DNA from: Candidatus Phelpsiimicrobium noxiivivens
Lineage (GTDB): Bacteria > Omnitrophota > Gorgyraeia > Velamenicoccales > Velamenicoccaceae
Assembly: GCA_001873995.1 (NCBI GenBank)
Contig: MNVR01000008.1
Location: 11,903-75,902, forward strand
Length of the DNA: 64,000 nucleotides
Direction: 5' to 3'
Made by a program: the position numbers and the translations under genes. A model generated the notes under the pieces. That model searched no databases, was not told where the DNA came from, and saw only the letters and a list, made by a program, of their open reading frames with translations. Below, in pieces: positions 2,551 through 63,339 of this stretch. How positions within the stretch are numbered: the stretch's first letter is position 1; each line of letters opens with the position of its first letter.

Positions 2551-2588
2551 AATAAAAACGCCATCTCGCGTTATTACGCAAGATGGCG
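2551..2588 (-). terminator. Terminator-like hairpin in the otsA leader
   Basis: Read on the minus strand, CGCCATCT..GCG pairs with CGC..AGATGGCG around a 6-base loop (one mismatch) and is followed by TTTTT. It lies between the otsA promoter and its start codon, ending about 9 bases before the ATG. That is where an attenuator or riboswitch expression platform would be. Confidence 0.65.
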
Positions 2589-2662
2589 GCCCGACCATCA
2601 ATAAATTTCTCCTCCGAGGTTCCTTCTCACAAATCAAACCCCGGACCCATTTCTTTTATGTT

Positions 2663-3214: not shown

Positions 3215-3439
3215 ATTCAACCTCCGCAAGCGTTTTTCTATTGATTATTTTTTCAATTTCCTTTTCTGTCAGCTTGTCATATACATTAGATAAAATCTTA
3301 AGTGCTTTTTTCTCATCTTGAGTTAAATCATCTTGCTCATTTTTGGTAAATAATAAACAAAATACTATAAGCTCATCCCTTTTCCAAAAAACAGACTTCT
3401 AAATCCTCCCCTTTTCCTTGCCTCCGGCAGCTTCAGAAG
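3198..3439 (-). pseudogene. Frameshifted RelE/HigB-type toxin remnant
   Basis: Two frames together spell a toxin C-terminal half: LLKLPEARKRGGFRS in one frame, then KRDELIVFCLLFTKNEQ and a Lys-rich tail in the next, ending at a TAG inside the antitoxin gene. The GGFR core followed by hydrophobic strands and a KNEQ-D-LT segment is the usual RelE/HigB ending. The shift falls near a run of six T. The N-terminal half is not recognisable; the region upstream runs into the abiEii stump, so a deletion joined two toxin genes. Confidence 0.6.
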
Positions 3440-5757: not shown

Positions 5758-5803
5758 AGACCCTTCCCTTATATGGAATAGGGAAGGTCTGCACTTTCTG
5801 TGC
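5758..5803 (-). repeat. Two-hairpin repeat, copy 1
   Basis: A stem of AGACC-TTCCC with GGGAAGGTCT closes a 12-base loop (TTATATGGAATA). It is followed by a small hairpin GCAC-TTTCT-GTGC. Three further copies (39601, 52431, 63059) keep the 12-base loop length and the TTTCT loop while the stems differ in compensating ways. The strand is given as the transcription direction of the surrounding genes. Confidence 0.6.
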
Positions 5804-5834
5804 TAACTCTTTGACACATCAAACCATAGAAAAA

Positions 5835-26933: not shown

Positions 26934-27026
26934 TAAATGCAGATAAAGGTAAACCATTCGCAAGAATGGGGTACAAAGCTAAAGTATCCTGCCGAACAAT
27001 GCAGGACAGCCAGCTGCCTAAACAGT
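26934..27026 (+). promoter_or_regulatory. Cyclic di-GMP-I (GEMM-I) riboswitch aptamer
   Basis: Core elements in order: GGTAAACC, stem CCATTC-GCAA-GAATGG with a GNRA tetraloop, the ACAAAGC joining segment (family consensus ACGCAAAGCC), the second stem TCCTGC...GCAGGA, and AGCCAGCTGCC closing against GGTA. It sits between a promoter and an intrinsic terminator ahead of a receiver gene, so c-di-GMP very probably controls readthrough. Whether it prefers c-di-GMP or cGAMP cannot be settled by eye. Confidence 0.85.
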
Positions 27027-34190: not shown

Positions 34191-36650
34191 TTAAGATCCT
34201 GAGAAGTATTCTAGAAAGTGTTGAACAACCTTTGGGTCAAATTGTTTTCCGGATTCTTTTTTAATGATCAGCAGGGCCTCTTTTTTTGAATAGGCTGTAG
34301 CGCGGTAGGGCCGAGGAACAATAAGAGCTTCAAATGTCTCCGCCACAAAAATAAACCGTGAAATAAAAGGAATATCTCCGCCTTTAATGCCTTCTGGATA
34401 ACCACGCCCGTCATAACGTTCATGGTGGTAAAGTATCGCCTTTGCCACAGGCGCCAAAAAAGGAACATCACGGATAATGTCCAAGCCGCGCTGTGGATGT
34501 TCCTTTATGAATAGCATTTCTTCTTTGGCCATATCTTTTCGTTGTTTTGATAAAACCTCCCGGGACAAGGTTAAAAATCCAAGATTGCACAACAACGCGG
34601 CCCGGCGCGCGTCACGGCATTCTTTTTCTTTCATCTTAAAACTTTTTGCTAATGCCTCCACGTGTTCATAAAGCCTTTCGCAATAATTATGGGCATGGCC
34701 CTGCCTGAGATACGCCTCTCTGGCCATAGGACGCATAGACTCTAGAATAGATTCTTCGTTCCTTGAATTAATAGACCTTAGCCTCGCCCTCAGATTCCCG
34801 CATAAGCCTTCATCCTTGGCATCTTTTTCTTCCAATACCCCCTGGCCTTCAGGCTCCTGATTATTCTGGCTGTATACCGTAATACTATTCCTGCCTTTCT
34901 GTTTGCTCTGATACATCGCCTGATCACTAGCATCCATAAGCGACGTGACATCCGTTATTCCAGACTCAGGATAAGAGGCGATACCTATGCTGATAGAGAG
35001 TTGCACTTTCTTTTTATCTTCCCCCAATAAATTATCTTTGACGGCTTTTATGATCTTCTGCGCGACAGTCACGGAACCAAAAGCGTCTGTTTCCGACAAG
35101 AATACTACAAATTCCTCCCCGCCAGACCTCACTACCACATCCGTATCGCGGACGCTCTTTTTCAACAACTCTGTAAAATCCTTCAGGATAACATCACCAT
35201 AACTATGGCCATACGCGTCATTGATAGCCTTAAAATAATCTATATCTATCATGATTATAGATAAAGGCCTTAAATAACGTTTGCACCTTTTTATCTCTTC
35301 GGAAAGCCTTTCGTTCAGATATCTAAAATTGTAAACGCCTGTGCGCACGTCCCTCAGCGATACGTCAAGAAGAGAATCATTCAAAGCCCTAAGCGTCAAA
35401 TTCGCGTCCCTCAATTTAAGAGACGCCATCTTAGTCTCAGTTATGTCAGAGATAAAACACAACGCGTGAGGAGGCTGGGTCCCGAACACAAGCGGGATGC
35501 TTGATATCAACGTATACAACAGGGTGCCGTCTTTTTTGACAAAAATTACTTCCCTGGCCTTGCGGATCAACTTTACGGAAGCCAACTTCATTCTTTCATC
35601 CGGCAGGATAAAATCAGAAAGGCTCCTGGCCAACATCTCTGTGTCGCAATAACCTAAAACATCCTGGAAGCTCTTATTAACGAACTGAACAGTATTGTCC
35701 GTTTTAAGTTCAACAATACCCTCCACCGCATGTTCCATGATCGCGTGGATCTTCTTATAATAATACTCCAGCATTTCTTCCGATTTTTTCCTGGCTGTGA
35801 TATCGCGGAAGATCTCTATCCTACCGCCCTTCAGATCGCCCTGAATGACCGGATAGCTCCAGTGTTCCAAAAATAAATTTTCCCCGCCTCCGAGGGGTAC
35901 AAGCTCACATTCAAAACTCTCCACGCACGTATTTGTTTCATAGGCTGAAAAAATGTTCTTTAGAAAGGATTCATCGTGTTGGATCAACGGTTTGACCTTG
36001 CTCTTTAGTATCTCCCTCATGTCCTCGCCGATAATAGCCGTCTTGTCTAACCCAAAATACTGCGCTACACTAGTGCTCGCCCACTTCACGAGGAAACCAC
36101 GGTCCAAAATGATTATGACATAATCAAGGGTGTTAATACCGTCTTCCAGCATTGACTCGTATTTTCTTTCCAAGGACTCAATAGCAAGGATCTTTGTGCT
36201 GTCTTTAAAAACCGACTTTGCCCCGCAGTATTTACCGGCATTGTCATAGAACGCCATAGACCTCATCTCACCTGTTATCTTTCCGTCAAACTTAGTCTTT
36301 ATGACGAAACCCTCAATAACAGTCTTGCCGCTCTTTAAAAACTCCTTGGCTTTATCCGAAAAGGCCGCGCGGCTCTCTATTGCCACAATATCCCACATAT
36401 ACATCCCAAGCATATGTTTTTTCGTGTAGCCTAAGGAATCAGCTAATTTTTTATTGACGTATATGAACTTACCGTCACGGTCAGTAATACACATAAAATC
36501 GCTGGACTCATCCAGGAGCGTGCTATACTTCTCATCTATCATCTGATAGAGAAGCCTGGACACCAAAGGCATGTCACCTTCGCTCGGATTTATAGGCCCC
36601 TGCATCTCGCTCATACATGCCTCGTCGCTTTCTGCCGCAGAAGGTGGCAT
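34191..36650 (-). CDS. PAS-GGDEF-HD-GYP signalling protein (HD motif degenerate)
   Basis: 819 residues, no TM helix. Three PAS domains (about 35-160, 165-290, 300-410), a GGDEF domain with intact GGEEF (510-514) and an RxxD inhibitory site (501-504), then an HD-GYP-like domain (about 640-819). The HHERYDGRGYP segment (742-752) is kept, but the catalytic LLHDIGK is LLCNLGF (His to Cys688, Asp to Asn689). It should make c-di-GMP, and the C-terminal domain probably binds instead of cleaving. A promoter and terminator lie in its leader. Later Mets (13, 16, 27) are possible starts. Confidence 0.88.
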   Translation of the reverse strand: MPPSAAESDEACMSEMQGPINPSEGDMPLVSRLLYQMIDEKYSTLLDESSDFMCITDRDGKFIYVNKKLADSLGYTKKHMLGMYMWDIVAIESRAAFSDKAKEFLKSGKTVIEGFVIKTKFDGKITGEMRSMAFYDNAGKYCGAKSVFKDSTKILAIESLERKYESMLEDGINTLDYVIIILDRGFLVKWASTSVAQYFGLDKTAIIGEDMREILKSKVKPLIQHDESFLKNIFSAYETNTCVESFECELVPLGGGENLFLEHWSYPVIQGDLKGGRIEIFRDITARKKSEEMLEYYYKKIHAIMEHAVEGIVELKTDNTVQFVNKSFQDVLGYCDTEMLARSLSDFILPDERMKLASVKLIRKAREVIFVKKDGTLLYTLISSIPLVFGTQPPHALCFISDITETKMASLKLRDANLTLRALNDSLLDVSLRDVRTGVYNFRYLNERLSEEIKRCKRYLRPLSIIMIDIDYFKAINDAYGHSYGDVILKDFTELLKKSVRDTDVVVRSGGEEFVVFLSETDAFGSVTVAQKIIKAVKDNLLGEDKKKVQLSISIGIASYPESGITDVTSLMDASDQAMYQSKQKGRNSITVYSQNNQEPEGQGVLEEKDAKDEGLCGNLRARLRSINSRNEESILESMRPMAREAYLRQGHAHNYCERLYEHVEALAKSFKMKEKECRDARRAALLCNLGFLTLSREVLSKQRKDMAKEEMLFIKEHPQRGLDIIRDVPFLAPVAKAILYHHERYDGRGYPEGIKGGDIPFISRFIFVAETFEALIVPRPYRATAYSKKEALLIIKKESGKQFDPKVVQHFLEYFSGS

Positions 36651-36685
36651 ACCCGCGCAATTCCTTATAAGCGCGGGGTGTGCGA

Positions 36686-39585: not shown

Positions 39586-39600
39586 ATCTCGTACTCAAGC

Positions 39601-39643
39601 CTTTTCTTAATTTGGTATCAGGAGAGCCTACACTTTCTGTGTA
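39601..39643 (-). repeat. Two-hairpin repeat, copy 2
   Basis: CTTTTCT/AGGAGAG (with G-U pairs) closes a 12-base loop, then TACAC-TTTCT-GTGTA. It fills the gap between the radical SAM gene and cbiM, 15 bases before the cbiM ATG. Confidence 0.6.
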
Positions 39644-52278: not shown

Positions 52279-52430
52279 GATATTTGCTCCTTAACGTTGC
52301 ATTATTTAGGCTTATTCCCTACAACGTTAATCCTGTCGAATGCGCTAAAATTATCGTAAAGAGAATTTTGGCGCTTCTTATGAGACAAGATAACTTTGCC
52401 TATTGTAGGTATCTCTTCCTTACAATATCA

Positions 52431-52477
52431 GACCCGACCCTTATAATGGATTGGGTCGGTCTACCCCTTTCTGGGGT
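52431..52477 (-). repeat. Two-hairpin repeat, copy 3
   Basis: GACC(C)GACCC/GGGTCGGTC around a 12-base loop (TTATAATGGATT), then ACCCC-TTTCT-GGGGT. It lies inside the 290-base gap between hypA and hydB, directly against REP-like copy 3. Confidence 0.65.
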
Positions 52478-52582
52478 GATCCCGAAGCCTGCCTGCCGGC
52501 AGGCCTGCGTTAGTAAATTTTATGCCCGGGTGCGCCGGGCAAGACTGCGCTTAAAATTTACGAGCGCTTAAGCAAGGGGTTC
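52478..52582. repeat. REP-like intergenic element, copy 3 (overlaps hypA end)
   Basis: CCCGAAGCC, the GCCTGCCGGCAGGC palindrome, GTAAATTTT, inner hairpin GCCCGG...CCGGGC, AAAATTTAC, GAGCGCTTAAGCAAGGGGTT. Its right end supplies the last codons (EPLA) and stop of hypA. Confidence 0.65.
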
Positions 52583-63049: not shown

Positions 63050-63058
63050 GTTTTGGAT

Positions 63059-63098
63059 CCTTCCTCTATGTGGGATTAGGAAGGCCCACCCTTTCTGG
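63059..63098 (-). repeat. Two-hairpin repeat, copy 4
   Basis: CCTTCCT/AGGAAGG closes a 12-base loop (CTATGTGGGATT), then CC-CTTTCT-GG, where the second stem is only two pairs. It lies 9 bases before the cyclase ATG. Confidence 0.5.
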
Positions 63099-63099
63099 A

Positions 63100-63339
63100 T
63101 TACTTTTTTTTGGAATCTATGACTTTAGCTATCTGTTCAACGGAATGTTGCTTAGCCACCTCTTTTTCATAGATAGATATACCAAACTCTTTTTGAAGCG
63201 CTATACAGACCTCTACCATCTCAGTTGAATCAACGCCCAGGCTCTGCTCAAGCGATAAGCCTTCCCTGACCTCTTCAGGCTTTACCTTAAGAAGTTTCAC
63301 AATGACATCCTTAACTTTTGTTTTTGTATCCATATTCAC
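63100..63339 (-). CDS. Acyl carrier protein of the polyketide system
   Basis: 79 residues with the phosphopantetheine attachment Ser in LGVDSTEMVEV (DSxxxVE form of the usual DSL). Acidic helices typical of ACP. It overlaps the KS-beta gene by 4 bases, reproducing the KS-CLF-ACP order of minimal type II polyketide synthases. Confidence 0.9.
   Translation of the reverse strand: MNMDTKTKVKDVIVKLLKVKPEEVREGLSLEQSLGVDSTEMVEVCIALQKEFGISIYEKEVAKQHSVEQIAKVIDSKKK

Follow-up and report, generated by a model that had tools for sequence, protein, structure and literature searches.

A two-hairpin, REP-like repeat family of Candidatus Omnitrophota with subfamily-specific targets, probably spread as mobile DNA

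The window analysed here is a stretch of 64,000 nucleotides from Candidatus Phelpsiimicrobium noxiivivens (contig MNVR01000008.1), which carries hypA, cbiM and a PF04199 cyclase gene among others. A preliminary description listed four copies of a structured repeat, at 5758, 39601, 52431 and 63059. All four are present at these positions, and a fifth, missed in that count, lies on the opposite strand. The features are as follows (the bar marks a junction).

5758..5804, minus strand: unit of subfamily I-AG, P1 GCAC/GTGC (sequence, model matches)
36633-36682, plus strand: fifth unit, subfamily III, P1 TGCC.., P2 CATACC CGCGC/GCGCG G GGTGTG (model matches, fold)
39597..39643, minus strand: unit whose P2 is decayed, lying between cbiM and a radical-SAM gene (sequence, model matches)
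52392..52429, minus strand: hairpin module 'B' (GATATTGTAAGG...AGGCAAAGTT), T|A junction (sequence)
52430..52477, minus strand: flagged unit, subfamily I-AG (sequence, covariance-model matches)
52473-52477/52463-52467, minus strand: arms of its P1, with loop AGAAA at 52468-52472
52453-52462/52430-52440, minus strand: arms of its P2, with bulged G at 52435 and 12-nt loop at 52441-52452
52478..52569, minus strand: hairpin module 'A' (AAGCGCTCGTAAATTTT...AAAATTTA...GGGATC), starting at T|AA of the hypA stop (sequence)
63055..63101, minus strand: unit of subfamily I-GG (sequence, target-site mapping)

A unit is 46-50 nt long, begins with AA, ends with CT (or CC, GT), and one of its strands folds into two adjacent hairpins. 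In the natural orientation the order is AA-P1-P2, where P1 is a stem of 4-5 bp closing the loop AGAAA, and P2 consists of 5 bp, a bulged G, 5 bp and the 12-nt loop nATnCCAtatAa. The preliminary description read the structure on the other strand: the genes and these elements lie on the minus strand, with P1 preceding P2. The loop bases it named on its own strand (A3, T4, G8, A10 and T11 of the 12-base loop, and the small loop TTTCT) occur in all four copies. The small stem of the 63059 copy, given as CC/GG (2 bp), is actually a 4-bp stem with a wobble (AUCC/GGGU). Good long stems are found in three of the four; the exception is the cbiM copy, whose P2 is largely decayed (DNA fold z = -0.09, compared with -5.16 for the unit at 5758..5804 and -4.33 for the flagged one).

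The unit at 5758..5804 is located downstream of a tRNA and a terminator-like hairpin. The cbiM copy is squeezed between the upstream stop codon, 4 nt before it, and the cbiM start, 10 nt downstream. The copy at 63055..63101 interrupts the stop codon of an ORF of at least 79 aa, at T|AA, and the cyclase gene starts 4 nt downstream. The flagged unit has a 94% identical copy between nusA and infB of the same genome (G000:C22:23918). The fifth unit is antisense, just upstream of a gene at about 34191-36614; its stems are very unlike those of the other four, yet its loops and bulge are the same. The corresponding ORF (34191-36650, minus strand) has a first start codon which overlaps this antisense unit at 36633, and the true start is probably an ATG near 36614. 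The window also contains two known RNAs above the Rfam gathering score, a c-di-GMP-I riboswitch (26938-27021, plus strand) and an nhaA-I RNA (2581-2648, minus strand).

Three hairpin modules make up a 178-bp mosaic (52392-52569) with the flagged copy in the middle; the mosaic starts from the T|AA within the hypA stop codon (52568-52570). Modules related to 'A' (AACGCTTGTAAATTT...GGAGTT|AA) adjoin units in stretches L088, L113, L160 and L173, and six other relatives of module 'B' have the form AAnTTTGnAAGG...GCAAAnTT and are bounded by T|AA. At least two further hairpin families (AAnTTTGnAAGG...GCAAAnTT and AACGCTTGTAAATTT...GGAGTT) share AA...T ends and T|AA junctions with the units and occur together with them in mosaics; besides the two window modules (52392-52429 and 52478-52569, both on the minus strand), they were located in L088, L095, L102, L113, L123, L160, L171, L173 and L178.

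A pattern made from the copies matched three times in the window and never in 100 shuffles. A first covariance model, trained on three window copies and two from other parts of the genome, recovered about 36 copies at E < 1e-4 in the 1.56-Mb genome. A second model, built from 116 copies and scored on at most 150 candidates per genome, raised this to at least 50, mostly intergenic, and found at least 72 in Ca. Velamenicoccus archaeovorus. Among 106 distinct copies, 96.9% of stem cells are paired, two-sided changes occur in 13 of the 14 stem pairs, and there are 234 doubly changed cells against 58 in shuffles. Control structures slid by 1-3 columns lower the pairing to 35-57%; the alignment was fitted to the structure, which biases this control in favour of the structure, and the copies are related to one another; even so, the effect is very large. 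Covariation exceeds all controls run, and the earlier claim that the stem structure is selected or maintained is strongly supported. Counts of G.T and A.C pairs (29 and 20), tried for choosing the folded strand, were not informative.

Template switching can create and repair stems (PMC8794818), and quasi-palindrome correction might therefore account for most of the covariation as a mutational product, with no selection on folding. We consider this improbable. The loops and the unpaired bulged G stay constant while the stems covary, even across subfamilies with entirely different stems, whereas correction would tend to erase the bulge.

Within the searches made, the repeat family was found only in Omnitrophota. 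A strict pattern run over 84,980 species matched 46 stretches; Candidatus Omnitrophota accounts for 45, Ca. Velamenicoccus archaeovorus LiM among them. The remaining one (KSB1, L099) falls within a gene, lacks P2 and is a chance match. Units are present in 51 of 237 Omnitrophota genomes, patchily across families. The pattern had no match in a virus contig collection, Rfam scans returned no family for the repeat, and our literature search found no relevant open-access paper on repeats in Omnitrophota or on repeats targeted to stop codons or Shine-Dalgarno sequences.

Covarying stems and fixed loops are what one would expect of a cis-acting RNA, a riboswitch or protein-binding leader which acts on the downstream gene via two hairpins and a nearby Shine-Dalgarno sequence, and about half of the class I copies of the Phelpsiimicrobium genome are in sense orientation 4-19 nt before a start codon. 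Two window copies had been described as lying 9-15 bases before start codons, which could be taken for a regulatory signature. The downstream genes are unrelated, though (cbiM, cyclase, acsB, infB, rmuC, topA and others; acsB, infB, rmuC, topA, dprA and panE were named by eye from protein sequences). Placements are sense, antisense and convergent, with nearly random orientation in V. archaeovorus, copies occur in tandem and nested, no Rfam family matches, and the single orthologous site tested (dprA-topA) is filled in one of nine genomes. We regard a cis-acting RNA as very unlikely. The cyclase copy is close to a start codon because the unit was inserted at the preceding stop codon in a tight operon. 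Of the 'RNA or mobile DNA hairpin' proposed earlier, the mobile DNA half fits, while a regulatory RNA agrees poorly with the unrelated downstream genes and the unconserved tested site.

Empty and filled sites bear directly on movement. Between panE and rmuC, the empty form reads TT|AACGGGGGAAAT and the filled one TT|unit|AACGGGGGAAAT: the Phelpsiimicrobium genome has TT, a 46-nt unit and AACGGGGGAAATATATGG, and genome G005 has TTAACGGGGGAAATCTATGG, a clean empty site. At dprA-topA, a unit is located exactly at the dprA stop codon in G005 and is absent from the eight other genomes, including G002 of the same genus. Units also follow one another head to tail in direct tandems that repeat every unit length, and they nest within each other's loops, to a depth of three levels in L116, where class I junctions are T|AA. 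Comparison of these sites and arrays shows that units were gained lineage by lineage and insert beside and inside one another. Multi-level nests in genome DeMMO3_15 (G031) can be read as an insertion history (L116 2500-2720, L090 1230-1430, L111 640-850). In V. archaeovorus, two class III units (L120 3607, L164 225) are directly followed by further P1/P2-like halves (CGCAGAAGGCGAAACACCTGCGCCATT), which suggests partial tandem copies.

The base preceding a unit is T in 89% of cases, and the right flank is AA in 83/86%. With AA at its start and T at its end, a unit inserted at T|AA recreates TAA on both sides. Judging from these junctions, subfamily I units insert precisely between T and AA and regenerate TAA at both ends. 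The flanking TAA could also be a 3-bp target duplication left by a DDE transposase moving a MITE-like element in double-stranded form, an explanation we find most improbable: no inverted terminal repeats were found (the ends AA(C/T)CC... and ...GGNCT are different and are not inverted copies of each other), class III uses another junction, and the flank base changes together with the first base of P2.

The three subfamilies differ in their preferred targets, which are stop codons (in sense orientation), the anti-Shine-Dalgarno edge (antisense) and the loops of other units. The following counts refer to the Phelpsiimicrobium genome and rest on mechanical ORFs as gene calls. Nine of 24 I-AG units start right at the upstream gene's stop codon or no more than 3 nt from it (p = 7e-6, with 6% of noncoding TAA sites in the window being stops; p = 0.001 for sense sites only). 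In class III units (P2 foot ACACC/GGTGT), the left edge reads CTCCT or nearly so in 10 of 19 cases; this edge is the Shine-Dalgarno sequence of a gene on the opposite strand, whose ATG is 10-18 nt away in 10 of 19. Six of the seven I-GG units interrupt a class III unit within its P2 loop, with (G/C)C|AAT as the junction. In V. archaeovorus, just one of 29 mapped copies is placed at a stop codon, and lineages may vary in their preference for stop codons.

The first base of P2 goes along with the flank. When it is A, the flank is T in 96 of 102 cases; when it is G, the flank is C in five of six (96:6 versus 1:5, Fisher p = 2e-5). The G cases come from one genome, possibly share ancestry, and some I-GG copies may derive from one composite, so the test includes few independent events. 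A similar switch was reported for Marinomonas REP, where changing GTAG to GTGG shifts cleavage from CT to CC, and E. coli TnpA-REP requires the bulge and cleaves at CT (PMC8266576). By analogy, the natural A/G series in the units appears to follow the rule of the published guide change, and the junction CT|AA would fit CT cleavage of the TnpA-REP type. In V. archaeovorus, the unit strand is on the lagging-strand template in 33 of 51 clusters, which is borderline (p = 0.05, with strands assigned from sampled GC skew that changes sign near 0 and 1 Mb); such a bias is expected for IS200/IS605-like movement. The unequal ends, the fold of one strand and the match between P2 and flank base therefore favour transposition as single-stranded DNA, as in those known systems.

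We propose that a TnpA-REP/IS200-IS605-type HUH/Y1 transposase, provided in trans, would recognise the folded single strand by its loops and bulge. The bases at the P2 foot (AG, GG or AC) may then serve as a guide pairing with the cleavage site: AG would pair with CT and GG with CC, at the right end of the unit as well as in the target. With about 90% of the genome coding, T|AA in stop codons and the anti-Shine-Dalgarno edge (CTCCT|) would be safe targets, because insertion leaves the stop codon or ribosome-binding site intact. We consider it probable that the units are a REP-like non-autonomous mobile DNA family of Omnitrophota, presumably moved by a TnpA-REP/IS200-type HUH enzyme acting in trans. 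Effects on mRNA stability or translation are possible as side effects; in E. coli, lowered translation was reported for REPs no more than 15 nt from a stop codon (PMC12306157).

More tentatively, and with our own opinion leaning slightly to doubt, the units could represent a new class of minimal transposons. These would consist of two hairpins with the P2 foot as a built-in guide, and their subfamilies would be re-targeted either to gene-expression signals (TAA stop codons, the edge of the Shine-Dalgarno sequence) or to sister-unit loops, allowing an HUH enzyme in trans to spread them harmlessly through 90%-coding genomes.

Among the closest known systems are the REP elements of TnpA-REP (RAYT) group 2, e.g., E. 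coli REP. Both are small extragenic bulged hairpins in many dispersed copies, form mosaics, have a (G)TAG-like motif at the 5' foot of the stem and CT at the ends, and a change of the putative guide from A to G accompanies a site change from CT to CC, as in Marinomonas REP (PMC8266576). The group 2 definition, an imperfect bulged palindrome of 20-50 nt in many extragenic copies, describes P2 and the at least 50 copies of the Phelpsiimicrobium genome. The units might then be classic GTAG-REP/BIME repeats mobilised by a RAYT of the same genome, where three PF01797 (RAYT) genes are found. This we consider unlikely. The units have an extra constant hairpin, P1, and occur in direct tandems and nests, not in inverted pairs; the 12-nt loop is conserved while the stems covary widely, and the targets are precise, either T|AA (stop codon) or CTCCT|. 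A constant unpaired GTAG tag was not found at the 5' foot of P2: TAG is present in most class I units, where the bases before it belong to the covarying P1, CAG, TGG and AAC also occur at the foot, and the four-base motif varies as GCAG, GTGG and AACA.

The RAYT genes are neither flanked by units nor correlated with them. PF01797 genes are common in the phylum and occur with and without units, and the distribution of RAYT orthologues does not track that of the units. No transposase gene flanked by units was found. In unit-bearing genomes, the PF01797 loci retrieved have no unit directly beside them; the closest unit lies about 400 nt off, and a different repeat stands in between. RAYT as the cognate enzyme is thus unsupported by adjacency, orthologue distribution and flanks.

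With IS200/IS605 elements and their non-autonomous derivatives (PATEs), the units share asymmetric hairpin ends and the lack of inverted terminal repeats, and possibly also guide-target complementarity and strand bias. They differ in having both hairpins adjacent within 46-50 nt, too short to encode a Y1 TnpA, in lacking tnpA/tnpB, and in the TAA on both sides of class I units. Integron attC sites are likewise structure-conserved, sequence-variable hairpins with extrahelical bases, but R''/R' boxes (RYYYAAC/GTTRRRY) are absent from the unit ends and flanks, units abut directly with no cassettes or integrase link seen, and the junction is T|AA. Small leader RNAs and riboswitches in Rfam resemble the units in their covarying stems and fixed loops, and differ in that the units are mobile, have no common gene context and no Rfam match. 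Since a constant GTAG tag and an associated transposase were both sought and not found, we place the family in neither REP nor IS200: it is a phylum-specific two-hairpin REP-like element with subfamily-specific targets, which appears to work like both. It is ordinary if seen as a 'structured RNA' and unusual as mobile DNA.

To our knowledge, the spread of REP-like repeats is poorly understood. Such spread is recorded here in the nesting of copies, in one exact empty site and in guide-target changes of natural origin (AG/CT, GG/CC), and the guide model is directly testable. Stop codons and Shine-Dalgarno edges as safe harbours would offer a simple explanation for the persistence of repeats in streamlined genomes, and suggest that parasitic DNA can spread in very compact genomes without gene breakage. 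They also call for caution, as structured repeats just before start codons can mimic riboswitches.

A different repeat, GGAAACTGTTTCC...CAACCTGTTCGGGA, brackets a RAYT-like Y1 transposase gene (160 aa) on contig C30 of the Phelpsiimicrobium genome (L132, about 2780-2830 and 3330-3400), and is probably the REP of that gene.
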